The notes below the pieces were generated by a model. It was not told the DNA's origin, ran no database searches, and was given only the letters and a program-made list of their open reading frames with translations. Position numbers and translations under genes: made by a program. From the NCBI GenBank assembly GCA_020342025.1, contig CP070840.1, forward strand, positions 2,128,196-2,154,201: a stretch of DNA of 26,006 bases, read 5' to 3'. This document shows positions 2,780 through 25,349 of the stretch, piece after piece. Position 1 is the stretch's first letter; each line of letters begins with the position of its first letter. The stretch is from Deltaproteobacteria bacterium (GTDB lineage: Bacteria > Desulfobacterota > DSM-4660 > Desulfatiglandales > HGW-15).

Positions 2780-4420
2780 TTAAAGCGCCTTGATCTTATA
2801 GACCTGATTGGAATCTGGATCTATCACATGAACGCCGCATGCCACACAGGGATCGAAAGAGTGCACCGTGCGAAGGACCTCTAAAGGCCGTTTGGGGTCT
2901 GCCACCGGGGTTCCCATCAATGCCTCCTCAACGGGTCCCAGTTTGCCTTTCTCATCCCTTGGACCCAGGTTCCATGTGGAGGGCACCACATATTGGTACT
3001 TGCCGATTTTCTTGTTTTCTATTTGGATCCAGTGACCCAGAGAGCCCCTCGGGACGTCGTTCAGTCCCACGCCCATCCCGTTCTTGGGCATTTCCCAAGA
3101 CTCATAGGTCTTGTCATTGCCCTTTTTCAGGTTCTCTACCAGTTCAAGGACCCATCCTTCCATGGCTTGGCCGATGACAAGGGTCTCAAGCCCGCGGGCT
3201 GCGGTCCGACCAAGGGTAGAGAACAGGGCGTTCACAGGGATATCCAATTGGGCTAAAGTGCCATTCACCGCACTCTGTATATCCTTATGCCCCTTGGCAT
3301 AGGCCACAAGGACCCTTGCGAGAGGTCCCACCTCACAGGATGCACCCTCATAGCGCGGGGCTTTGAGCCAAGAGTATCTGTCCTTGGTGTCATAGGGCCC
3401 ATGTTGTGGGGCAGTCTCACCCTCGAATGGGTGTCTGTCCTTTCTCCCTTTGTACCACGAATGGGCCACATGCTCCGTCACCTTTTTCTGCTCAGCCATT
3501 TTCACGCCCTTGAGATTCCTGTTCAGGATCACCCCACGCGGCATGAAAAGGCTCTCAGGCTCTTTGTCACTCTGTGGGAACTCCCCCCAGGCATGGAAAT
3601 TGGTGGTTCCTCCAATGGCTCCCCAATCTTTGTAAAAGGAGGCAACAGCCACCAGGTCTGGGATGTATACATTTTTGATAAAGTCCTGGGTCTCCTTCCA
3701 GGTGTAAAGGAACTCCGCAATGCGATCCGGCCTTAAATCCTTAACACAGGTGACGCCACCCACCACAAAGGTCTGGAGGTGAGGATTCTTGGCACCAAAA
3801 ATGGCGTGCATCCTGACCGCCTTGGCCTGCAGGCGAAGGGCCTCAATGTAGTGGGATGCCGCCATCAGGTTGGCCTCAGGCGGGAGTTTGTAGGCAGGGT
3901 GTCCCCAGTAGCCGTTGGTAAATGGGCCCAACTGGCCACTGTCCACAAAAGTCTTGATCCTTTGTTGGACACTCTTAAAATACGGGGCACCACCCCAGGG
4001 CGCGTTACTCACGGTGTCGGCCAAAGCGGCCGTCTTTTTGGGATCGGCCTTCAGTGCACTGACCACATCCACCCAGTCCAGCGCATGGAGATGGTAGAAA
4101 TGAACGATATGGTCTTGTTGGAACTGGGCACCCATCATCAGGTTTCTAAGGAGACGCGCATTGTCGGGAATCTTGACTCCTACCGCATTTTCCACTGCCC
4201 TCACCGAGGACAGGTAATGGACCATCGTTCAGACCCCTCAGGTGCGCTGACAGAAAAGCGGAGCATCACGGGGATCACGTCCCTGCAGGATAATCTCAAT
4301 ACCTCGAAACATCTGGCCAGAGCTCCAGGCATTAACCACTTTACCTCCAGCCACCTCCACCTCAATCCTCAGGTGGCCTTCTATCCTCGTAATAGGATCT
4401 ATCATTATTTTCGTAGCCAT
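2780..4420 (-). CDS. Periplasmic [NiFe]-hydrogenase large subunit with two selenocysteines (U-x-x-U) in the N-terminal nickel-binding motif
   Basis: Catalytic subunit of a membrane-side H2-oxidising hydrogenase. Read through two UGA codons it is 546 residues, the normal length for periplasmic [NiFe] large subunits. It starts at an ATG (4420) with GAGGAG five nt upstream and begins MATKIMIDPITRIEGHLRIE. The L1 motif, usually R-I-C-G-V-C-T, reads R-T-UGA-G-V-UGA-T, with the UGAs at codons 61 and 64, followed by VHYLSSVRAVENAVG and DHIVHFYHLHALDWVDV, all family hallmarks. The C-terminal motif is DPCVACGVH (Cys525, Cys528) plus a 15-residue tail that a maturation protease would remove after His531. 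Classical [NiFeSe] enzymes carry Sec at the first Cys of that C-terminal pair, so the positions are reversed here. No other stop occurs in the frame, which argues against decay. The frame can be mis-split into two ORFs, 4238-4420 and 2780-4225. It would be exported bound to the Tat-bearing small subunit. No maturation genes are in the window. Confidence 0.88.
4195..4240 (-). other. Two selenocysteine UGA codons with a shared candidate SECIS hairpin
   Basis: The UGA codons lie at 4240-4238 and 4231-4229. After the second UGA come 15 nt, then an 8-bp stem CTGTCCTC/GAGGGCAG (4213-4206 with 4202-4195, one T-G wobble) closed by the loop GGT. The loop begins 23 nt after the second UGA and 32 nt after the first; both fall within the roughly 16-37 nt I recall for bacterial SECIS apical loops, and the loop starts with G as expected. 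The fdhA hairpin in this window also has a GGY loop 23 nt after its UGA. Selenocysteine insertion is inferred, not measured. Confidence 0.75.
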
Positions 4421-4477: not shown

Positions 4478-5422
4478 TTAGGTCTTTTGTTCGAAGAAGG
4501 GTGTCATTTTGTCCCAGAAGCCCGGCTCGCTGCAACCGATGCAGGGGTGCCCTGCCTCTACGGGCCAGCTGGTGCCGTCGTTGAATTTGGCAATGGGACA
4601 ATTATTGTAGGTGTCCGGCCCCTTGCAACCCAACTTATAGAGACAGTAGCCCAGTTTCGCCTCTTTAGAGCCGAATTCCTTTACGAATTCATCGTTCTCA
4701 TAGTGGCCCCTTCTCGGGCACTGATCATGAATCGTCTGTCCATAAGCGAAGAGAGGCCTGCCAAGATCGTCCAGTTCGGGAAGCTTACCGAGTAACAGGT
4801 AGTTAACAATCGTCCCGACCAGGTTCACAGGATTTGGTGGACAACCAGAGATGTTGACGACCTTCATACCGAGAGCGTCGCCAACGCCTTTGTAACCGCC
4901 AGGATTGGGAGCAGCCGCCTGAATGCCACCAAAAGTGGCACAACTGCCGTGAGCGATGACTGCCGCCGCCTTGGGGCACACATCCCGTGCGATTTCCAGG
5001 AAGGTACGTCCGGCAATCTTGCCGTAGGCACCATCATATTTCGTGGCAATAGCCCCTTCCACCAAACAGATGAATTTCCCCGCGTACTTTTTCACAGCTG
5101 CATTGAGGTTATCCTCCATCTGTTGGCCCGCCGCGGCAAATATGGTTTCATGATATTCGATGGATACGATTTCGAGAACCAGTTCGTCAATCCATGGATA
5201 CATGGTTCTCAGGAGGGCTTCGGAGCAACCCGTGCACTCACCAAAGTGCAGCACCATCACTGGTGGGCGTTCCTTGGGTGCTGCGAAGACCTCCGCCACC
5301 TTGGGGATAAATGACGAAGAGAGCCCCATGGTAGCGGTCAGAAACCCGCAGTATTTCATGAAGTCCCTTCGTGAGATCCCCTTTTCTGATAACCTTTCGT
5401 AAAAGTCTCTCATCTCGTTCAT
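4478..5422 (-). CDS. Periplasmic [NiFe]-hydrogenase small (iron-sulfur) subunit
   Basis: Electron-transfer subunit, 314 residues, carrying three Fe-S clusters between the Ni-Fe site and an external acceptor such as cytochrome c3. The start chosen is the ATG at 5422, preceded by AGGAGGTG with good spacing; an upstream in-frame start at 5473 has no such site. A Tat signal SRRDFMK with a hydrophobic stretch covers residues 17-48. The proximal cluster motif GECTGC (Cys63, Cys66) follows, then GSCATFGG, SGCPPNP, and the distal and medial ligands in CPRRGHYEN, CLYKLGCKGP, NNCP and GHPCIGCSEP. A Pro is kept in SWPVEAGHPCIGC, where [NiFeSe] enzymes are reported to have Cys, so the medial cluster is probably [3Fe-4S] (tentative). 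The large subunit follows after 57 nt. The protein should travel folded with the large subunit to the periplasm. Confidence 0.93.
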   Translation of the reverse strand: MNEMRDFYERLSEKGISRRDFMKYCGFLTATMGLSSSFIPKVAEVFAAPKERPPVMVLHFGECTGCSEALLRTMYPWIDELVLEIVSIEYHETIFAAAGQQMEDNLNAAVKKYAGKFICLVEGAIATKYDGAYGKIAGRTFLEIARDVCPKAAAVIAHGSCATFGGIQAAAPNPGGYKGVGDALGMKVVNISGCPPNPVNLVGTIVNYLLLGKLPELDDLGRPLFAYGQTIHDQCPRRGHYENDEFVKEFGSKEAKLGYCLYKLGCKGPDTYNNCPIAKFNDGTSWPVEAGHPCIGCSEPGFWDKMTPFFEQKT

Positions 5423-6081: not shown

Positions 6082-8064
6082 GTGGCCGAGAGAATAGGAT
6101 TATATGTCTGTGAGTGCGGTCCGAATATTAAAGAAGCGATCCATATGAAGGATGTCTTGAAATATGCCCGGGGCCTGGAAAAGGTGGTTCTTGCCAAACC
6201 TTTCCGGCTCCTGTGTTCCAAAGAGGGTAAGGAGCTTCTTGAAAAGGACATAAGAGAGCATGAACTGAACCGGGTGGTCATCGCAGCCTGTTCACCAAAA
6301 GAACACGAGATCACTTTTAGGCAAGTTTTGGGGAGTGCAGGGCTAAATCCATTTCTATTGCAGATGGCCAATATTCGAGAGCAGTGCGCGTGGGTCATTG
6401 AGGATAAGCGCCTTGCCACCGAGAAGGCGAAGCAAATGATCAACGCAGCGGTTAAGCGGGTCACCCACCATGGGCCCCTGGAGACAAGAGAGATAGAATG
6501 CCAGTCCGATGTCCTCGTGGTGGGCGCCGGAATAGCAGGCATAAGCGCGGCGCTCACCCTGGCACAGAAGAAAAGAAAGGTCTACGTGGTTGAAAAGTTG
6601 TCGTGCATTGGAGGCAAGATCGCGCGATACGAGGATCTCTACCCAACGCTGGAATGCGCCTCGTGCATTCTTGATCCGAAAATAGATGAAGTCCTACATA
6701 ACGAGCAAATTGAGCTTTTCACCCTGAGCGAGGTCCAAGAGGTCTTAGGCTATTATGGGAATTTCCATGTTAAGGTGCAGCAGATGGCAAGATATGTGGA
6801 TTCTGAAACCTGCTTGGGCTGTGGGGCCTGTTTTGAGTGTTGCCCTGTCCGGGTGAGAAACGAGTACAATGAGGGCCTTGACGAGCGAAGGGCCATCCAC
6901 ATTCCTTATGCAGGGGCCCTGCCGAACGTGGCCGCCATCGATAGGAGGCACTGTTTACGTTGGCAAGGGCAGGACTGCCATGCCTGTCAGGAAGCCTGCC
7001 CCTTCGGATCCATCCATTACAAACAACCGGATCAAACCCATGAATTGGAGGTGGGGGCCATCATCTTGGCCACAGGGTTTGATCTGTTTGATCCCGGCCG
7101 GGCTCCCCAGTATGGCTACGGAAAGATGCAAGACGTTTACACGAGCCTGGAATTTGAAAGAATCCTGAGTTCAACGGGTCCGACAGGAGGAAAGATTCTC
7201 CTGAGAAACGGTCAACCTCCCAAAAGAATTGCCCTTGTTCACTGTGTCGGTTCAAGGACGAGCAGATTCAACGAACACTGTTCCGGAATCTGTTGCATGT
7301 ACGCATTGAAATTTTCCCATGAGGCCTTGCAGAAACTGCCAGGCGTTTCATTGATCCATTTGTACACTGATCTTTGTCTTCCAGGGAAAGAATCACAGAG
7401 TTTTTACAACATGGTCTCTAAAAGTGAAGCGGTAGAATTCCACCGCATGAGAGGTCCCGATTCTGTGGAGATTACGGAGGAGGGCGAAGGGCTATCCATA
7501 AAATACACCGATGTGCATGGAAACGCCCATGCGTTGACTTCAGATATGGTCGTTTTAGCTCCGGCGGTTGAAGGGGCAAGGGATGCCCCATTCTTGGCCA
7601 GGGTCTTCGAGGTATCACATGGCAAGGGTGGATTTTATGTTGAAGGAGATACTCAAGCCGCCCCAGTGTCCACGGCGAGGGAGGGCGTGTTCATTGCTGG
7701 TTGTGCACAAGGGCCAAAGGACATTCAGAGCTCGGTGGCACAGGGGCAGGCGGCAGCGGGCCTCATTCTCTCATCCCTCATCCCTGGACAGAAATTGGAG
7801 CTGGAGCCCATGGCTGCAGAGGTGAGGGAGGACCTCTGCGCAAGTTGCAAGATTTGTACGGGGCTGTGCCCATACAAGGCCATTTACTGCGACGACGAGG
7901 AAAGGCCTGCCACCGTCAACGAACTCTTATGTAAAGGGTGCGGAATTTGTGCTGCAGCTTGCCCTAGCGGTGCCATTAAGGCGCGCCACTTTACGGACAC
8001 TCAGATATCGGAAGAAATCAAAGGTGTCGTGGAAGATCCAGGAAAGGCATCAGAGAAAAATTGA
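6082..8064 (+). CDS. hdrA: HdrA, flavin- and iron-sulfur-containing electron-bifurcating subunit
   Basis: 660 residues, the size of full HdrA. It starts at a GTG with AGGAG seven nt upstream. The N-terminal cluster domain has Cys10 and Cys12 (CECGP), Cys45 and Cys70 (ACSPKEHE). The FAD-binding GAGIAG is at about 148-153, and the HdrA-specific TLECASCILDPK is at 190-200. An inserted two-cluster ferredoxin domain follows (CLGCGACFECCP at 244-255, then Cys299, Cys302 and Cys306), then the second half of the flavin domain, then a C-terminal ferredoxin with two 4Fe-4S motifs (CASCKICTGLCP and CKGCGICAAACP, about 585-632). Family knowledge: HdrA uses FAD to split electron pairs between ferredoxin and a high-potential acceptor. 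All cysteines are encoded as Cys here. mvhD starts on its stop codon. No hdrB or hdrC is in the window, so the high-potential partner is unknown. It is cytoplasmic. Confidence 0.93.
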   Translation: MAERIGLYVCECGPNIKEAIHMKDVLKYARGLEKVVLAKPFRLLCSKEGKELLEKDIREHELNRVVIAACSPKEHEITFRQVLGSAGLNPFLLQMANIREQCAWVIEDKRLATEKAKQMINAAVKRVTHHGPLETREIECQSDVLVVGAGIAGISAALTLAQKKRKVYVVEKLSCIGGKIARYEDLYPTLECASCILDPKIDEVLHNEQIELFTLSEVQEVLGYYGNFHVKVQQMARYVDSETCLGCGACFECCPVRVRNEYNEGLDERRAIHIPYAGALPNVAAIDRRHCLRWQGQDCHACQEACPFGSIHYKQPDQTHELEVGAIILATGFDLFDPGRAPQYGYGKMQDVYTSLEFERILSSTGPTGGKILLRNGQPPKRIALVHCVGSRTSRFNEHCSGICCMYALKFSHEALQKLPGVSLIHLYTDLCLPGKESQSFYNMVSKSEAVEFHRMRGPDSVEITEEGEGLSIKYTDVHGNAHALTSDMVVLAPAVEGARDAPFLARVFEVSHGKGGFYVEGDTQAAPVSTAREGVFIAGCAQGPKDIQSSVAQGQAAAGLILSSLIPGQKLELEPMAAEVREDLCASCKICTGLCPYKAIYCDDEERPATVNELLCKGCGICAAACPSGAIKARHFTDTQISEEIKGVVEDPGKASEKN

Positions 8065-8495
8065 ACCGTTTTGAACCGAAGATCGTCGGGTTTCTGTGCA
8101 GCTGGTGTGCCTATGAGGGGGCGGACTCGGCAGGCCGGGCAAGGAGCACATATCCTGCCAACCTAAGGGTGGTGAGGCTGTTGTGCAGCGGCAGAATGGA
8201 TCCCCATTTCATTCTTGAGGCCTTCAAGGAGGGTGCCGACGGAATCATGATTTTGGGGTGTCATCTAGGGGAGTGCCATTACAAAGAGGGCAATTTCCAG
8301 GCCCTGAAGAGGACCGCGCTCCTAAAAAAAATCCTTCCCCAATTCGGAATCGAGGAACAGCGGGTGCGGCTCGACTGGATATCCACGAGCGAGCATGAGA
8401 AGTTTGCCAAAATTGTCTCAGAAATAGTCGAGAAAGTTCGGGAACTTGGTCCAATGAGGGGAGTAACGAGAGGCTTGAGTCATGGAAAGGCCTAA
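8061..8495 (+). CDS. mvhD: MvhD-type [2Fe-2S] subunit linking the Mvh hydrogenase to HdrA
   Basis: 144 residues. It begins at a TTG that overlaps the hdrA stop (TTGA); no ATG lies before Met46, and the sequence FEPKIVGFLCSWCAYEGAD right after the TTG is the conserved family start. Conserved ligands are Cys13 and Cys16 in CSWC, Cys42 in VRLLCSGRMDP, and Cys67 and Cys72 in GCHLGECHY. Family knowledge: MvhD carries a [2Fe-2S] cluster and passes electrons from the MvhAG hydrogenase to HdrA. Methanogen homologues can carry Sec; this one has only Cys. The 3' end overlaps mvhG by 14 nt, so translation is probably coupled. Confidence 0.9.
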   Translation: MNRFEPKIVGFLCSWCAYEGADSAGRARSTYPANLRVVRLLCSGRMDPHFILEAFKEGADGIMILGCHLGECHYKEGNFQALKRTALLKKILPQFGIEEQRVRLDWISTSEHEKFAKIVSEIVEKVRELGPMRGVTRGLSHGKA

Positions 8496-9453
8496 GATCG
8501 CGCTATATTGGTGCTCCAGTTGCGGGGGATGTGAGGAATCGGTTATCGATCTGGCCGAAGATATCCTGACCATCGCCGCATCCGCTGATATTGTGTTCTG
8601 GCCCATCGCCATGGATTTCAAGTTCAGCGATGTGAGGAAAATGAAGGATGGAGAAATTTCCGCGACGCTCATCAATGGTTCAATTAGGATGGACGAGCAG
8701 GAGCACATGGCCAGACTCTTGAGAAGGAAATCCAGGGTGCTGATCGCCCAGGGGAGTTGTGCCCATTTGGGCGGGGTCTACGGTTTGGCCAATTTCTGCG
8801 ATCCCGAAGAGGTGTTGAGAAGATCCTATGAAGAGGCCCCCTCCGTGAAAAACCCGCAAGGTATTTTGCCGAAATGGAAAACCCTGGAATCCGGAAGGGA
8901 ATTGAAGCTGTCCGGTTTACATGACTCTGTCAAGGCCTTGGACCAGGTTGTGCCAGTGGATTATTATATCCCGGGATGTCCTCCAACGCCCGAGCTTATA
9001 AAGCAGGCTATAACGATGATCCTGGAGAACAGCCTTCCCTCAAAAGGTAGTGTGGTGGCGGAAAAAAAGGCGCTATGTGACACATGCCCACGAAAAGACA
9101 GCGTGCCAGATACCCTCCATATCTCGGAATTTAAGAGACTGTACGAAGCAGAATGGGATCCGGTGCAATGTTTTCTGGGCCAAGGCATCATCTGTCTGGG
9201 TCCTTCAACCAGGGGCGGTTGCCGTGCAAGATGCATCAATGCCAATATGCCCTGCCGGGGCTGTTTTGGACCAACAGAGAACGTGAGGGACCATGGGGCG
9301 AAGTCACTCTCATTTCTCGCCTCATTGATCGATTCGAAAGAGGGACAGGAACTGGAGCGGATCGTAGACTCCATTCCGGACCCCGCAGGGCTTTTTTACA
9401 GGTTCAGCCTGCCCTCATCCATGTTGCAGAGGAAGCGAAGGCAGAAGAGATGA
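8482..9453 (+). CDS. mvhG: Small subunit of a cytoplasmic F420-non-reducing-type [NiFe] hydrogenase
   Basis: 323 residues. The ATG has GAGAGG eight nt upstream. There is no signal peptide, consistent with a cytoplasmic enzyme. The proximal cluster motif YWCSSCGGCEES (Cys11, Cys14, Cys17) opens the protein, followed by GSCAHLGG and PGCPPTPE, which complete the proximal 4Fe-4S site. A Cys-rich C-terminal half follows (CDTCPRK, GIICLGPSTRGGCRARC, MPCRGCFGP) for two more clusters. It would relay electrons from MvhA to MvhD and HdrA. It lies within the overlapping hdrA-mvhD-mvhG-mvhA unit and ends in an ATGA overlap with mvhA. Confidence 0.92.
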   Translation: MERPKIALYWCSSCGGCEESVIDLAEDILTIAASADIVFWPIAMDFKFSDVRKMKDGEISATLINGSIRMDEQEHMARLLRRKSRVLIAQGSCAHLGGVYGLANFCDPEEVLRRSYEEAPSVKNPQGILPKWKTLESGRELKLSGLHDSVKALDQVVPVDYYIPGCPPTPELIKQAITMILENSLPSKGSVVAEKKALCDTCPRKDSVPDTLHISEFKRLYEAEWDPVQCFLGQGIICLGPSTRGGCRARCINANMPCRGCFGPTENVRDHGAKSLSFLASLIDSKEGQELERIVDSIPDPAGLFYRFSLPSSMLQRKRRQKR

Positions 9454-10856
9454 ACAGACGCATTACCATTGATCCCATCACAAGGTTGGAAGGTCACGGG
9501 AGGATTGAGATCTTTACCGATGGCAAAGGCAACGTGGAGAGGACCTACTTGCAAATCCCGGATTTCAAGGGGTTTGAAAAGTTTTGCGAGGGGAGGGCGG
9601 TGGAGGAAATGCCCACCCTCACGCAGAAGATTTGCGGTGTCTGTCCCATGGCCCACCACGCCGCATCCAGTAAGGCGCTGGATGAGATTTTCAGCGTAGA
9701 GCCCCCTGACGCGGCAAAAAAGATCAGAGAGCTCATGTATAATGCATTCATTTTCGAGGATCACCTTTTGCACTTCTATTTCTTGGGTGCCCCTGATTTC
9801 ATCGTGGGACTGGACTCGTCCACCGGCGAAAGAAATGTACTGGGTGTCATGGATAGGTTAGGGGCTGAGCTGGGAAAGAGAATGATCGATATGCGAAAGA
9901 GGGTGCGGGGAGTCAATGCGACCATTGGCGGGAGTCCCCTGTATCCTGTCTGCGGTCTTCCGGGGGGGGTTTCAAAGGCTTTGACCATAGAAGAGGTCGC
10001 TGAAATACGGGGTGTAACGAAAGATGCGGTGGAATTTTCAAAGCTCACACTGAAGATATTTGATGAGACGGTCCTGAAAAGTAAGGCGTACCTTGATTTG
10101 CTGCATTCTGATGCCCTGCGTCACAGGACCTATTACATGGGTCTTGTGGATGAAAAGAACCGGATGAATTTCTATGATGGGAAAATCAGGGTTATGCGTC
10201 CGGATGGTGAGGAGTTGGTCAAGTTCGCGGCAAGAGACTATCTCAAGTATCTGGAGGAGCGCGTTGAGCCATGGAGCTACGCCAAGATACTCTATTTGAA
10301 GGAGATCGGCTGGAAGGGGTACACGGATGGACCGAAAAGTGGTATTTACAGGGTCGGACCTCTTGCCAGACTCAATGTCTCTGAAGGGATGGGAACACCA
10401 TCTGCCCAGGCAGAGTACGAGAAGATGTTTGACCGTTTAGGGGGCAGACCTGCTCACCATACGTTGGCCTACCATTGGGCCAGGCTTATTGAGGTTCTCT
10501 GTGCGGCGGAGCGGATGGATGAACTCGCAAAGGATGAGAATCTGACAAACACAGCCATAAGGAATCTCCCCCATGAGATCAACAGGGAGGGTGTGGGCGT
10601 CTGCGAGGCCCCACGGGGCACCCTTTTCCACCATTACAAAACCGATGAGCGGGGAATCATCGAGGAAGTGAACCTATTGGTGGCCACACAGAACAACGCT
10701 GGAGCCATATGCCTGTCTGTGGATAAGGCCGCCCGTCTCTTTATTAGGGGGGGTTCCATTTCAGAGGAAATAAAAAATCGGATAGAGGTGGCATTCCGCG
10801 CCTATGATCCATGCCTTGCCTGCACGACCCACGTCATTTCGGGGCCAAAAAGGTAA
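9450..10856 (+). CDS. mvhA: Large subunit of a cytoplasmic F420-non-reducing-type [NiFe] hydrogenase
   Basis: 468 residues from the ATG in the ATGA overlap with mvhG. A longer in-frame extension back to 9153 lies inside mvhG and lacks family sequence, so it is rejected. It starts MNRRITIDPITRLEGHGRIE. The L1 motif is KICGVCP (Cys62, Cys65) and the C-terminal motif is DPCLACTTH (Cys455, Cys458) followed by a short seven-residue tail. All four nickel ligands are Cys, in contrast to the periplasmic enzyme in this window. It would oxidise H2 in the cytoplasm and feed HdrA through MvhG and MvhD. The short tail suggests processing by a specific endopeptidase after His461, but no such gene is nearby. 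Confidence 0.93.
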   Translation: MNRRITIDPITRLEGHGRIEIFTDGKGNVERTYLQIPDFKGFEKFCEGRAVEEMPTLTQKICGVCPMAHHAASSKALDEIFSVEPPDAAKKIRELMYNAFIFEDHLLHFYFLGAPDFIVGLDSSTGERNVLGVMDRLGAELGKRMIDMRKRVRGVNATIGGSPLYPVCGLPGGVSKALTIEEVAEIRGVTKDAVEFSKLTLKIFDETVLKSKAYLDLLHSDALRHRTYYMGLVDEKNRMNFYDGKIRVMRPDGEELVKFAARDYLKYLEERVEPWSYAKILYLKEIGWKGYTDGPKSGIYRVGPLARLNVSEGMGTPSAQAEYEKMFDRLGGRPAHHTLAYHWARLIEVLCAAERMDELAKDENLTNTAIRNLPHEINREGVGVCEAPRGTLFHHYKTDERGIIEEVNLLVATQNNAGAICLSVDKAARLFIRGGSISEEIKNRIEVAFRAYDPCLACTTHVISGPKR

Positions 10857-13008: not shown

Positions 13009-15990
13009 ATGGGTGCAATGGGACTCTTTCCCAGAAATATTGATTCCAGACGCTGGTTGAAATTTGCCATTGACCACCCCTTTCAGATCATCGCGGTGAT
13101 GATCCTGATTACATGTCTTTTAGGCTGGAGACTCCCCAATCTGCGTTTCCAAACCTCCATCTACGATCTGGCCATCAAAGACCTTTCTGAAAGCATGGCG
13201 TATCAGAAATTTAAAGAGGAATTTGGGACCGAGGAAATCATCCTGGTGGTGGCGAAGAGCAAAAACACCTTTGACCCCCAGGTTTTCCAAAAAATCGGTG
13301 GCTTGACCCAGGAGCTCTCGGGGATTCAAGGCATAAGAAGGGCGATTAGCCTGCCCAGTATCAGAAAGGACATGGATATCACCGACAAGTGGAGTCTCTC
13401 CGATTTTGAGAGGATCATCGCACCCATTGATCTCTTCCATAAAAACCTGATCTCTGCGGACAAAAAGACCACGATCATCTCCTTGATTCTGGAAGATAAG
13501 GAAGAAAAGGATCAGATTATTCGTTCCGTTGAAAAGATCATTGAAAGGGAAAACAGAGAGCTATCGCTATACCAAATCGGTATGCCACTCGTTTCAGAGG
13601 CTTTAGCCGCTTACACCAAAAAGGACTTCCTCACGCTGCCCCCCATCACATTTCTGATTATGGCAATGGTTCTTCTCCTCCTCTTTCGCAGTCTTCGGGG
13701 CCTACTGATTCCGGCCGGGTCTGTGCTTGTGGCCCTCATCTGGACTTTCGGTTTGATGGCCTGGACCCGAACCCCCCTTTCCATGCTCACAATGATCGTA
13801 CCTATCTTTGTCATTGCCGTGGGGTCTGCCTATTGCATGTATATCTTGTCGGAGTACTTTGAATCCATCAAGACGTCACAAACCCCAAAAGAGGCCGCTT
13901 ACTTGTGCTTTACACGGGTTGGATTTCCCACCTCCTTGGCGGTCATTACCACAACCATAGGGCTTGGCTCACTCCTGTTGAACAAAATCTCTGCCATCAG
14001 AGAATTTGCCATTTTCTCCTGTTTTGGCATATGGAGCATGCTGATTGCTATCCTTCTCTTGCAGCCAGCTATTTTTTCTCTATTGCCTATACCCCCAAAG
14101 AAGGAGAGAAGTCATTTCATCGTCGGAAGAGATCTCTTGGGGCGTTTGTTATCAAAGATCGTTATATTGAATCTACAGAAACAAGGAATCACGCTCCCTG
14201 TTCTTGCGGTTGTCTGCCTCATGGGCCTCGCAGGGATTTACCGGATCAAGGTAGAGACCAATCCTGTGGGCTTTTTTGGTAAGGATACAACTATCAGTCA
14301 GCATTTCCACGACATTTATCAGGAGATGGCAGGAAGTTTCCCCATGAATGTGGTTTTAAACGGCAAGACGGAGGACTATTTCGAGCGCCCTGAGCATTTG
14401 CAGATGATTTCCCGCCTTCAGCATTTTCTCGATTCCTTGGAAAGCGTGGACAAGACAGTCTCTTTTGCCGACTACATCAAGTTAGTCAATTACGCGAGCA
14501 ACCAATACAGGCCGGAATACTACGCCCTGCCCGAAGAATCCTTTGAAGTCCGCACCCTGATGAACAGCTACAAGACCTTGTTGGGAGGGGACATGTTTGA
14601 AAGGTTCATGAACGGGGACCTCTCCAAGACAAACATTCTGTTGAGGACCCATATCTCCAGCTCCAAGGATTTTTTGTTGATAAAGGATAAGATCCAGAAT
14701 CATCTGAAAGAGCATTTTCCCAAAGATCTAGGCTTTCAGATCACCGGTTTTGGCATTGTGATTTCTCAGAGTAGCCATCTTCTCACCAAGGGGCAGGTGA
14801 AAAGCATTTCCCTGACTCTCGTCCTCATCTTTGGCGTTATGCTTTTACTTTTTCTTTCTGCCAAGGCGGCTCTGATTGCCTTAATCCCCAATATCTTTCC
14901 CATCATCGTCAATTTCGGGCTTATGGGATGGCTTGGAGTGGAGCTTTCCGTGGCAACCAGTCTGATCGCTTGTATCGCCATAGGGCTGGCCGTTGACGAT
15001 ACGATTCACTATTTGGTCAGATACAGCAGTGAATTTAAGGGGGATCTGGACAAGGACAGAGCCCTGCGCGATACTTTGAGAAGTGTGGGTAGACCCATTA
15101 TTTTTACCACGCTCATCATCAGCCTCGGATTTTCCATACTCATTTTCTCCCATTTTAAACCCACAGCTGTCTTTGGGTTGATGATGGTCATCATCATGGT
15201 TTCGGCTTTGATCGGGGATTTAATCATTCTGCCCTCCCTGATGCTCCATGTGGAGCTGGTCACAGCATGGGATCTTCTCAAACTCATGCCAACCCAGGCA
15301 GGAATATCTCCGGGCATGGCCCATGAGTTGAATCAGCCCTTGAATGCCATCAAGATGGGGAGCGAATTTATAAAGATGATGATTCAACAGGGAGAGAAGA
15401 TCCCTCAGGAGCAGCTTTCGGAGGTGGTTCAAGAGTTAAGTGATCAGGTTGACCGGGCCGCGGTGATCGTGAACCGATTCACGGATTTTGACTTCAAACG
15501 GGATTTTGCCAAAGAGGAGATAAATATTAACAGGCCCATCAAGGACGTGCTCAGCATCATCGGTCATCAACTCCAACTGGAAAACGTAGAACTGACATTG
15601 GATCTGGATGAAACTATCTCTCCTATCTCAGCGCATGGCAACCGCTTACGGCAGGGGATCTTCAACCTGGTGATCAACGCATGGGAGGCCATAAACCAAA
15701 AGGCAGGGGTTGAGGATGAAGGGACTAGGGGGTGTATCAACATACGGACTTTTGGTGAAGATGATCGAGTGGTCGTCACGATCTCTGACAATGGCGTCGG
15801 CGTCCCACGAGCCATACGGCACAGGATTTTTGAACCTTTTTTTACGACCAAGGCAGTGGGTAAGGGCAAGGGATTGGGGCTTTCAATAACCCACCACATT
15901 GTCAAAGATTACGGTGGACGCATCGATTTGGAGAGCAAAGAAGGGGTAGGTACGACCTTTAGACTCACCTTCCCGATCGCGCCGTTTTAA
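13009..15990 (+). CDS. MMPL/RND permease fused to a histidine-kinase catalytic core
   Basis: 993 residues in one unbroken frame. Residues 1 to about 755 form an MMPL-type permease: an N-terminal helix (about 24-41), a periplasmic loop with SIYDLAIKDLSES, a helix block from about 212, a helix at about 393-411, a second loop, and a final helix block from about 598 to 746. A WDLLKL segment ends the transporter and then, within about 15 residues, His772 appears in [18 protein letters not shown] full catalytic domain follows: N box [32 protein letters not shown] and GKGLGLSI. No PAS or HAMP unit lies between the permease and kinase parts. Inference: substrate binding or transport could set kinase activity, or the kinase could monitor a lipid-like substrate. 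The response regulator follows after 21 nt. The start has no strong ribosome-binding site, and ATG codon 4 is an alternative. Confidence 0.9.
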   Translation: MGAMGLFPRNIDSRRWLKFAIDHPFQIIAVMILITCLLGWRLPNLRFQTSIYDLAIKDLSESMAYQKFKEEFGTEEIILVVAKSKNTFDPQVFQKIGGLTQELSGIQGIRRAISLPSIRKDMDITDKWSLSDFERIIAPIDLFHKNLISADKKTTIISLILEDKEEKDQIIRSVEKIIERENRELSLYQIGMPLVSEALAAYTKKDFLTLPPITFLIMAMVLLLLFRSLRGLLIPAGSVLVALIWTFGLMAWTRTPLSMLTMIVPIFVIAVGSAYCMYILSEYFESIKTSQTPKEAAYLCFTRVGFPTSLAVITTTIGLGSLLLNKISAIREFAIFSCFGIWSMLIAILLLQPAIFSLLPIPPKKERSHFIVGRDLLGRLLSKIVILNLQKQGITLPVLAVVCLMGLAGIYRIKVETNPVGFFGKDTTISQHFHDIYQEMAGSFPMNVVLNGKTEDYFERPEHLQMISRLQHFLDSLESVDKTVSFADYIKLVNYASNQYRPEYYALPEESFEVRTLMNSYKTLLGGDMFERFMNGDLSKTNILLRTHISSSKDFLLIKDKIQNHLKEHFPKDLGFQITGFGIVISQSSHLLTKGQVKSISLTLVLIFGVMLLLFLSAKAALIALIPNIFPIIVNFGLMGWLGVELSVATSLIACIAIGLAVDDTIHYLVRYSSEFKGDLDKDRALRDTLRSVGRPIIFTTLIISLGFSILIFSHFKPTAVFGLMMVIIMVSALIGDLIILPSLMLHVELVTAWDLLKLMPTQAGISPGMAHELNQPLNAIKMGSEFIKMMIQQGEKIPQEQLSEVVQELSDQVDRAAVIVNRFTDFDFKRDFAKEEININRPIKDVLSIIGHQLQLENVELTLDLDETISPISAHGNRLRQGIFNLVINAWEAINQKAGVEDEGTRGCINIRTFGEDDRVVVTISDNGVGVPRAIRHRIFEPFFTTKAVGKGKGLGLSITHHIVKDYGGRIDLESKEGVGTTFRLTFPIAPF

Positions 15991-22268: not shown

Positions 22269-25200
22269 CTATGCCTTTCTAATGTTGACCATAAAGGCCT
22301 TGGTTTCAGGAATCCTGGTATTCGCATCACCCGTTGATGGGGTCAACAGGTTGGCCGAATCGCCCCCACCCTCTGGATAAACCCATCCATAATGCCATGG
22401 GAGTCCCACTTGATGAACCACGTTCCCTCCCTCAACTGTCTTGCCGCCGATCCTAAAGGGACGAAAGCGATGGGTCACAATAGCCACGGCCTCTACCTTG
22501 CCGCGTGCGGACTCCACAATAACCATGTCACCGTTCTTGATCCCCTTCAACCTGGCCAGTTCATGGCTCATCTCCACGAAGAGCTGGGGTTGAGACTCCA
22601 GCAGCCATGGCTGCCACCGCGTCATAACCCCGGTCTGCCAATGCTCAGAGACCCGGTAGGTGGTGGCCACAAATGGATACTTGGGATCGCATGTTTTGTA
22701 AATATCCGCATCGGTTCCGTATCGCGCTGCGACGGGATTGATGAGCTGGCTGGACATCAGATTCTTCTCCACGGGGCACTCTATAGGTTCGTAGTGCTCT
22801 GGGAACGGTCCTTCCGCTCTTCCGGGACCAAAGACATGGGCATGGCCCTCAGGTTTCATGATGAACGGATACTTAGTTTTGGGATTGGGGGTACCATCCG
22901 CATTGAGCATGGGAGGCCACCCGCCATCCGGGACATCGCCCACCCATCCGCCTTTTCCATCCTTGGCAGCGGGATCCCAGCGAATGACCGGATGCTCCGA
23001 ATCCCATGGCTTACCATATTTGTCTACGGATGCCCGGTTGTAAATAATGCGTCGGTTGACCGGCCAGCACCATGCCCATTCCAGATTGAGGCCGATGCCA
23101 TCCTTCTCTCTCTTGCGCCTGGCCGCCATGTTCCCTTTGTTCGTGTAAGAGTTGCAGTAAAGCCAGTTCGCACTACTGGTAGAGCCGTCATCTTGTAAGA
23201 ATGCAAAGCTGGGGACCAGGTCACCTTTCTTGAAAGACGTGCCTCTCACAATCATATCCGTCTGGAAATACCCATTGATCTCCTTAGCCACTTTGTGCGG
23301 ATCATATTTCCCAGCGGTCGTGTAGTCCCACTTCAGATTAAGAATGGGCTCGGGGAAGACGGCTGTGGTATCTTTTCTATAAAGATATCTTACCTTTCTC
23401 ATGAGGCTAAGAATGATATCGCCGTCAGCTCTTGCCTCTCCAGGCGGCTCCGCAGCCTGGTAACGCCACTGACTCCAACGCCCGCTGTTCGTGATGGAGC
23501 CCTCTTTCTCCATGGAGACGGCAACGGGGAGGAAAAAGACCTCCGTTTTTATCTTCTTGGGATCCATCCCGGGTCCTTTCCAGAACGATCCCGTCTCGTT
23601 GGGGAAGATATTCACATTCACCATCCAGTCCAGATTTGCCATGGCTTGACGGGTCTTATTGGCGTTCGCCCCGGAGCCTGCCGGATTCTGTCCCCATGCA
23701 AGGAAGCCCTTGATTTCGTTGCGGTACATGGCATCAAAGAGGTCCAACCAGGAATAGGCCTTCCCATCATCCAGCTTGGGAAGCCAGCTGTAGCCGAAAT
23801 CATTTAGGCTCGTCGCTTTATCGCCAAAGAATGACTTGAGCAGGCTCACCGAGTATTTGGGATAGTTCCCCCACCAGTTGGCACTCAGGGGATCCTTGGT
23901 TTTGGGTGTACATGTCTTGTTGTATTCGGCCAGGGTGCCCTGAGAGGCCCTGGGGGTCCTCAGATAGCCGGGCCAGATATGAAAGAGGATGCAGTGATCC
24001 GTAGAACCCTGTACATTGGACTCCCCTCTCAGGGCGTTAACGCCACCACCGGCCACACCCATGTTGCCCAGGAGCAACTGAATAATGGCCATGGTTCGAA
24101 TGTTCTGGGTCCCCACCGTATGCTGGGTCCAGCCCATGGCATACATGATGGTCCCTGCCTTTCCCCTCTGACCGGTCGCCGAATACATCTCATAGACCTT
24201 GATGAGATCCTCTTTGGGGGTGCCTGTGACGGCTGAGACCGTGGCTATGTCATATCGATTGAAGTGTTCTTTCAATTGCTGGAAGACACATCGTGGATCC
24301 TGAAGGGAGCGATCCTTCTTCGGAGTACCGTTCGCATCCATTTGAAAGGCCCACGTCTTCTTATCGTATTTCCTGGTCTTGGGATCATATCCGGAGAAAA
24401 GGCCATCCTTAAAGGAATAGGCGTCTGCCAGAATAAAGGCTGCATTGGTATATTCTGCCAGGTATTCCTTAAAGTACTTTTCATTGTCGATGATGTACTT
24501 GATCATCCCGCCCAAGAAGGCGATATCCGTTCCTGATCTCAATGCGGTATAGAAATCCGCCTTTGCCGAGGAGCGCGTAAATCGGGGATCCACGCTGATA
24601 AGCTTGGCCCCACGCTCCATGGCCTCGGTTACCCACTTGAAAGAGATGGGGTGATTTTCTGCCGCATTGGAGCCCATGATGAGAATGCAATCACTGTTTC
24701 GAATATCGATCCAGTGATTGGTCATCGCGCCGCGTCCGAACGACTCTGCCAGAGCCGCAACTGTGGCGCTGTGTCAGATACGGGCCTGGTGTTCAATGTA
24801 GACCAGACCCAAGGCCCTCATCATGGCCTGGATCAGCCAGCACTCTTCATTGTCCAATGCTGCGCTTCCCACCTCAGCAATACCGGTGGTCCGGTTGACA
24901 ACGCTTCCCTTACTGTTTCTGCGCCGAAAAGTTTCGTCCCGGGTTTTTTTGATCTTTTTGGCGATGGTCCAGAGGGCCCAATCCCATGATACCTCCTGCC
25001 ACTCTGTACTGTATGGCTTTCGGTATAAGGGAGTGGTGACACGATTTTCGTTATTGGCCAACTGGCTCAAGGCCGCAACCTTTGCACAGAGAGAACCCTC
25101 GTTGATGGGGTGGTCAGGGTCTCCCTCAATGTTAATAATTTTCCCCGCTCCTGCTTTGCCGGTGTGAACGATCACACCGCAGCCGACAGCACAGTAACAA

Positions 25201-25349
25201 CAGATGCTCGTCGATTCCTTGGCGAAGCGGATTTTCAGGGTCTGGGCATGGGATTTGATCGGCTTTAGATCAAGACCCAGCCCCAGAACCGCCGCGCCCG
25301 CTGCAGAAGCCCCTGTGATTTTAAGAAAATCACGACGTGTAACTTTCAT
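22269..25349 (-). CDS. fdhA: Selenocysteine-containing formate dehydrogenase catalytic (alpha) subunit
   Basis: Oxidises formate to CO2 at a Mo or W bis-pterin site in the periplasm. Read through one in-frame UGA (codon 192) it has 1026 residues, a normal length. The ATG at 25349 has GGAGG upstream. The Tat signal TRRDFLK plus a hydrophobic region occupies residues 1-35. The 4Fe-4S motif is Cys50-x2-Cys53-x3-Cys57 with a fourth Cys in EGSLCAKV. The active-site segment is HQARI-U-HSATVAALAESFGRGA, with the conserved His following Sec. Cofactor-binding features such as TNHWIDIRNSD and MGSNAAENHP follow, and a C-terminal dinucleotide-binding domain ends the protein. The frame can be mis-split into ORFs at 22269-24725 and 24774-25349. 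fdhB is 15 nt downstream. Confidence 0.95.
24742..24776 (-). other. fdhA selenocysteine codon and candidate SECIS hairpin
   Basis: The UGA is at 24776-24774. Seventeen nt later a 6-bp stem GGCTCT/AGAGTC (24756-24751 with 24747-24742, one G-T wobble) is closed by the loop GGC, which starts 23 nt after the UGA. The position and the Gs at the start of the loop fit bacterial SECIS rules as I know them. The protein context (ARI-U-HS) makes Sec here near certain. Confidence 0.85.

Follow-up and report, generated by a model that had tools for sequence, protein, structure and literature searches.

In the natural [NiFeSe] hydrogenases of the literature examined, nickel has a single selenium ligand, which belongs to the C-terminal pair; the papers cited here were available in part, and statements attributed to them refer to those parts. 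In the classical enzyme HysAB of Desulfovibrio vulgaris Hildenborough and Desulfomicrobium baculatum, which is periplasmic and has its selenocysteine (Sec) on nickel, a single Sec stands in place of the first Cys of the C-terminal pair, which corresponds to Cys546 of E. coli Hyd-2 (PMC11212049). The Sec-containing alpha subunits FrhA and MvhA/VhuA/VhuU also place Sec on nickel, but they belong to another subgroup, and hydrogenase alpha subunits appear as UxxC with one Sec in Table 1 of PMC13188914. The roles of the ligand positions have so far been probed by single engineered variants, obtained at low yield. Sec was introduced at Cys61 or Cys64 of Hyd-2, the same two positions that are of interest here, one at a time and through UAG codons, and a single Sec at each of the four Hyd-2 Cys, 61 and 64 included, gave processed enzyme active at a level below native (PMC11212049). 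The available part of that study contains no double-Sec variant. Bacterial selenoproteins with two Sec three residues apart (UxxU) are found in other families (PMC13188914, Table 1), but these are redox pairs of other folds and not metal ligands of hydrogenases.

A hydrogenase with natural N-terminal Sec ligands was not found in the partially available open-licence literature searched. The available parts of PMC9312934, PMC9961374, PMC9723677, PMC10779653, PMC13111528, PMC12013277, PMC1088965, PMC11291895 and PMC4730141 make no mention of a natural N-terminal Sec ligand, and the 2026 selenoprotein survey PMC13188914, in the part available, does not list the N-terminal ligand positions for any hydrogenase.

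Here, we describe a 26,006-nucleotide stretch of a deltaproteobacterial genome (the window) encoding a [NiFe] hydrogenase large subunit in which the codons of both N-terminal nickel ligands are UGA. From the comparative sequence evidence it is very likely that both are read as Sec, which would give one terminal and one bridging selenolate in a predicted periplasmic enzyme.

Results

The large-subunit gene occupies 2780..4420 on the minus strand. Translated with TGA as U, it starts at ATG and spans 546 codons before TAA, and its sole internal stops are TGA61 (4238..4240) and TGA64 (4229..4231). Residues 39-531 of the product score 740.2 bits against PF00374 (cut-off 25.8). The minus-strand codons CGC ACC TGA GGG GTC TGA ACG ATG read R-T-U61-G-V-U64-T-M, and the distance from the start of the first TGA (4240-4238) to that of the second (4231-4229) is nine nt. 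Re-reading of the sequence thus bore out the initial annotation, which had placed UGA at both Cys of an R-x-C-G-x-C motif, nine nt apart, in a frame of 546 codons with no other stop. It had also described the C-terminal pair as plain Cys, and the motif DPCVAC (2837..2854, minus strand) with Cys525 and Cys528 can be read directly in the translation and in the structure alignment. Without read-through the open reading frame begins at ATG66 and encodes 481 aa.

The 15 residues after His531 (2783..2827, minus strand) form a C-terminal tail predicted to be cleaved in maturation, and several solved mature chains stop at the residue aligned to His531. A maturation protease was not identified in the window; in one homologous locus (L004) the large-subunit gene is followed by genes for a HycI-type protease and a class III cytochrome c. 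The small-subunit gene (4478..5422, minus strand, start taken at the first Met) encodes a protein with a twin-arginine signal (TIGR00391, 403.6 bits against a cut-off of 179.5; TIGR01409, 22.2 bits). A homologous small-subunit gene lies directly upstream in the 10 loci with both UGA codons from clade 1, to which the window belongs, and in locus L170 of a second clade described below.

The Group 1 [NiFe] hydrogenase of D. vulgaris Miyazaki F (1h2a, 4u9h) is a homologue of the window protein along almost the entire length, and its precursor 1h2a likewise has a C-terminal tail. The alignment to this precursor (723 bits) puts residues 61, 64, 525 and 528 on residues 81, 84, 546 and 549. Since Cys84 and Cys549 bridge Ni and Fe in the Miyazaki F enzyme (PMC12117559), Cys81 and Cys546 are the terminal ligands, and UGA61 therefore falls on a terminal position and UGA64 on the N-terminal bridging position. 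The initial annotation had likewise assigned one terminal and one bridging selenolate, in agreement with this alignment and with the ligand roles given in the available part of PMC12117559. The ligand positions of RxCGxC and DPCxxC are in register with 1h2a, and the N-terminal pair can act as ligands only if both UGA are read as Sec; in the Miyazaki F enzyme both N-terminal ligands are Cys, whereas both codons are UGA in the window. As with HysAB, the window enzyme would be periplasmic with Sec on nickel, but the Sec of HysAB is in the C-terminal pair while the window has Cys there and Sec is predicted at the N-terminal ligands instead. The window protein scored 430 bits against the HysA model NF045518 (cut-off 780) and 594.4 against NF033181 (NiFeSe_hydrog; cut-off 600). 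Cys525 and Cys528 are present in 11/11 rows with UGA at both codons (UU) and in 44/44 rows with Cys61 and UGA64 (CU) that reach this region.

The two UGA codons recur in other genomes. Among 80 loci encoding relatives, eight have TGA/TGA, 32 Cys/TGA and 37 Cys/Cys, while three do not reach codons 61 and 64; the aligned parts of all 80 are free of other in-frame stops. In several organisms, therefore, an in-frame UGA falls where homologues have a conserved Cys. A set of 85 genomes from one class contained 10 with two TGA (G001-G008, G042, G043) and 11 with a single TGA. A match at E <= 1e-80 was obtained in 200 genomes of a 395-genome sample of the phylum, and the matches listed include at least two genomes with two TGA (G001, G305) and at least nine with one. 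When near-duplicates among 135 rows were merged, 114 rows remained, comprising 12 UU including the window, 45 CU and 57 with Cys at both codons (CC); in none of these 114 did UGA61 occur without UGA64. UGA is found at both codons in 11 genomes besides that of the window, most UU genomes being metagenome assemblies, and the closest loci are from metagenome assemblies of Desulfobacteraceae, Desulfobacterales and deltaproteobacteria. The U-x-x-U form was seen only among clades that have C-x-x-U relatives, and most Sec-type relatives are C-x-x-U. A bare U-x-x-U DNA pattern matched 12 of the 395 genomes, with only two places (G001, G305) inside hydrogenase matches, and the reversed control pattern matched two genomes, so the bare motif was not taken as evidence. 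No relative was found in viral contigs.

A second clade (L170-L173) shares 54-58% identity with the window protein and has 82-95% identity internally. It is separated with 100/100 support and contains one UU row, that of G305, along with two CU rows and one CC row. The predicted UxxU trait is thereby present in two separate clades. These comparisons outline a wider family in which the bridging N-terminal ligand is predicted to be Sec; for a subset of this family, including the window, the prediction extends to both N-terminal ligands.

A few residues accompany the UU form. Among rows that share 70% or more identity with the window, and without correction for kinship, Phe218 is found in 11/11 UU rows and 3/74 others, and residue 60 is Thr or Val in 11/11 UU rows and mostly Ser in the others. 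One further fragment (G044:C203:8700-9407) is 86% identical to residues 1-236 and free of stops, which suggests that there is a Cys-type relative no more distant than those with UxxU.

Downstream of the two codons, a putative SECIS-like hairpin of 8 bp with a GGU loop lies at 4195..4213 on the minus strand. UGA64 precedes its loop by 23 nt and UGA61 by 32 nt, distances at which one element could serve both. The published bSECIS model has a loop of 3-9 nt with an early G, a stem of 4-16 bp, a distance of 16-37 nt from UGA to loop and an MFE <= -7.5 (PMC13188914), and the window hairpin, at -10.6 kcal/mol, falls within all of these limits. None of 200 shuffles was as stable (z -3.68); longer stretches were less telling, with z -2.16 for 49 nt and z -0.46 for 61 nt from UGA61, where 62/200 shuffles were as stable. 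Rfam gave no match within the window at gathering scores. In 41 UGA-containing rows, the window included, the hairpin is at one place, and its commonest form, CUGUCCUC-GGU-GAGGGCAG, occurs letter for letter in 28 of them. Over 541 six-codon windows ranked by synonymous-codon identity, codons 70-75 come first in the 41 UGA rows (0.94, against a gene mean of 0.45), but rank 540 (0.26) in 17 Cys rows chosen for similar identity and 541 (0.34) in all 37 Cys rows. The bSECIS model fits 50/57 UGA rows, compared with 5/57 Cys rows (one of them at the same place) and 34/1140 random synonymous recodings. The seven UGA rows that miss the -7.5 cut-off, three of them UU, correspond to four rows whose stem contains a G facing a G (L014, L016, L040, L115) and three from the second clade, at -7.4; the second-clade hairpin is a different one, CAGCUC-CGUGA-GAGCUG, with the same 23-nt spacing. 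Both sides of one stem pair are changed in two rows (L005, L007), which lends the hairpin slight backing from covariation. As the stem hardly varies, covariation was set aside as proof, and the case for the predicted hairpin rests on conservation more than on covariation. Folding of 12 UU sequences revealed no further hairpin, whether between the two UGAs or surrounding them, that all have in common.

Sequencing error, gene decay or an altered genetic code is hardly credible as the source of the two codons in view of these data, and nothing in favour of such a reading came to light. The same codons are found in the 11 other genomes, the hairpin is conserved at synonymous sites, and the single frame is intact with no further in-frame stops. 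Against eight UU relatives, pN is 0.04-0.10 in codons 1-60 and 0.10-0.14 in codons 65-546, with pS at 0.60-1.02, near saturation; constraint at the protein level acts on both sides of the two UGAs. UGA is moreover the ordinary stop of six of the 15 other complete window genes with checked ends, which speaks against a global reassignment.

It is also most improbable that termination at UGA61 or UGA64 is followed by a new start at ATG66 to give a 481-residue protein devoid of the N-terminal ligands. An ATG does stand two codons after UGA64 in all 11 clade-1 UU rows, and among rows with 70% identity or more to the window Met66 is found in 11/11 UU rows and only 2/74 others, a contrast uncorrected for kinship. 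Gene callers take the Met66 start as well: among 120 listed proteins (8000 candidates scored), at least nine clusters, 88-94% identical to the window protein, are of 481 aa and begin there, and the full-length proteins in this list that are >97% identical to a locus correspond to Cys/Cys loci only, or to one not covering the site. However, the second-clade UU row has Thr66, most CU rows have Tyr66 and yet carry the same hairpin, and codons 1-60 are themselves constrained at the protein level. Loss of both N-terminal ligands would, in addition, abolish nickel binding. Decoding of UGA as Sec is the reading that we prefer.

How many of the two codons are decoded deserves separate consideration. 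UGA64 alone might be decoded as Sec with useful yield, a true two-Sec enzyme being rare or absent and UGA61 acting mainly as a stop, as a selenium-dependent switch or as a codon read by another tRNA. We regard this as unlikely, although the loop lies 32 nt from UGA61 and not at the 23 nt that UGA64 has in common with another gene of the window, that of formate dehydrogenase-N alpha (FdhA; 22269..25349, minus strand, TIGR01553), whose one in-frame UGA, codon 192 (24774-24776), lies 23 nt ahead of the GGC loop of a hairpin (24740-24758, minus strand). C-x-x-U is also far commoner than U-x-x-U (45 against 12). But UGA61 occurs in 12 sequences from two clades, always with UGA64 and with ligands and frame intact, and 32 nt is inside the published range of 16-37 nt (PMC13188914). 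A second match of this hydrogenase at E <= 1e-80 is lacking in nine of the 10 UxxU genomes of the class set, which have a single match, G008 having two partial ones; UxxU selenoproteins are also on record in other families (PMC13188914). Double decoding, at UGA61 and at UGA64, is the reading followed below.

Genes for Sec insertion are common among the relatives. SelB was over the cut-off in 13/14 relatives' genomes (193 bits in the exception, G002) and in four of five further ones (all but G181), and SelA was found in 15/17 (all but G003 and G008). In 14 named control genomes the corresponding figures were 2/14 for SelB and 1/14 for SelA. The Rfam model for tRNA-Sec exceeded its cut-off in 13/14 relatives' genomes but also in 5/14 controls, so its score alone is weak and ARAGORN was run on the best hits of 12 of the 14 genomes, leaving out G013 and G014 (75-77 bits). 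Ten of these 12 were called tRNA-Sec(UCA), while the best hits in G007 and G010 were Leu or Ser tRNAs. Each of the UU hosts G001-G008 has at least two of SelA, SelB and tRNA-Sec, and SelA and SelB are present in G042, G043 and G305. SelA, SelB and tRNA-Sec hence occur in most of the relatives' genomes examined.

A second, more divergent SelB is encoded beside another tRNA-Sec(UCA) in six of the 14 genomes (L099-L104; G005, G006, G008, G003, G012 and G011). Two such tRNAs lie by the second SelB in G011, in G003 the tRNA beside it is the only tRNA-Sec found, and G305 has two SelB over the cut-off. This second set was considered as a dedicated decoder of UxxU and rejected: it is found in CU hosts (G011, G012) in addition to UU hosts (G003, G005, G006, G008) and was not seen in other UU hosts, and no link to UxxU is claimed.

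Discussion

The proposal of the initial annotation, a hydrogenase with both N-terminal nickel ligands as Sec, has gained support from the recurrence of the codons, the hairpin and the Sec machinery of relatives. These sequences probably represent a natural class of hydrogenases with two selenolates, a terminal one on nickel and another that bridges nickel and iron. This class would have been built bridging-first, would have arisen in two separate clades, and would use one SECIS to recode two UGAs nine nt apart. SelB bound to the single hairpin would deliver Sec-tRNA twice, to UGA61 and then to UGA64. The apoprotein would then take up the Ni-Fe cofactor, whereupon a HycI-type protease would remove the 15-residue tail and the large subunit would be exported by the Tat pathway together with the small subunit, with electrons possibly passed on to a class III cytochrome c. 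The parts given here to the protease and the cytochrome derive from the adjacency of both genes to the homologous gene in L004. The benefit may be that the Ni site recovers from oxidation, as has been proposed for the classical [NiFeSe] enzymes.

The succession of changes was followed in two trees. In a 78-row tree, built without the two codons and with bootstrap not fully settled, position 64 requires at least nine changes and position 61 at least three, and a single origin of UU within this set is compatible with the starred branches alone. With more distant rows added, a 44-row tree gives six changes for UU, at least four of them forced by starred branches. For U61, gain within clade 1 was indistinguishable from loss. 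Two Cys/Cys rows, L125 (the sister of CU row L126) and L173, keep a UGA-type hairpin in codons 61-76, which suggests recent returns from Sec to Cys; remnant SECIS elements in Cys genes have been described (PMC1794560). The order that we infer is a change of the bridging Cys64 to Sec, followed by that of the terminal Cys61, with later returns to Cys.

If natural selenium-bridged and two-selenium enzymes exist as predicted, they would allow the role of each ligand in oxygen tolerance, catalytic bias and reversibility to be tested, and the series of CxxC, CxxU and UxxU among close relatives would be a ready natural experiment. They also raise the decoding question of whether one SECIS can serve two UGA codons. 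The family is likely to be truncated or missed in databases, given that at least nine of the listed predictions nearest to such forms begin at residue 66. Single-Sec C-x-x-U forms, such as that of the Olavius Delta 3 symbiont (L017), may have been noticed before.

The window encodes a second hydrogenase, with HdrA-, MvhD-, MvhG- and MvhA-like genes at 6082-10856, whose large subunit has plain Cys in both pairs (KICGVC and DPCLAC). Two MMPL-type transporters are encoded at 13009-15990 and 3-2693, one with HisKA and HATPase histidine kinase domains and the other with a cyclic-nucleotide-binding domain.
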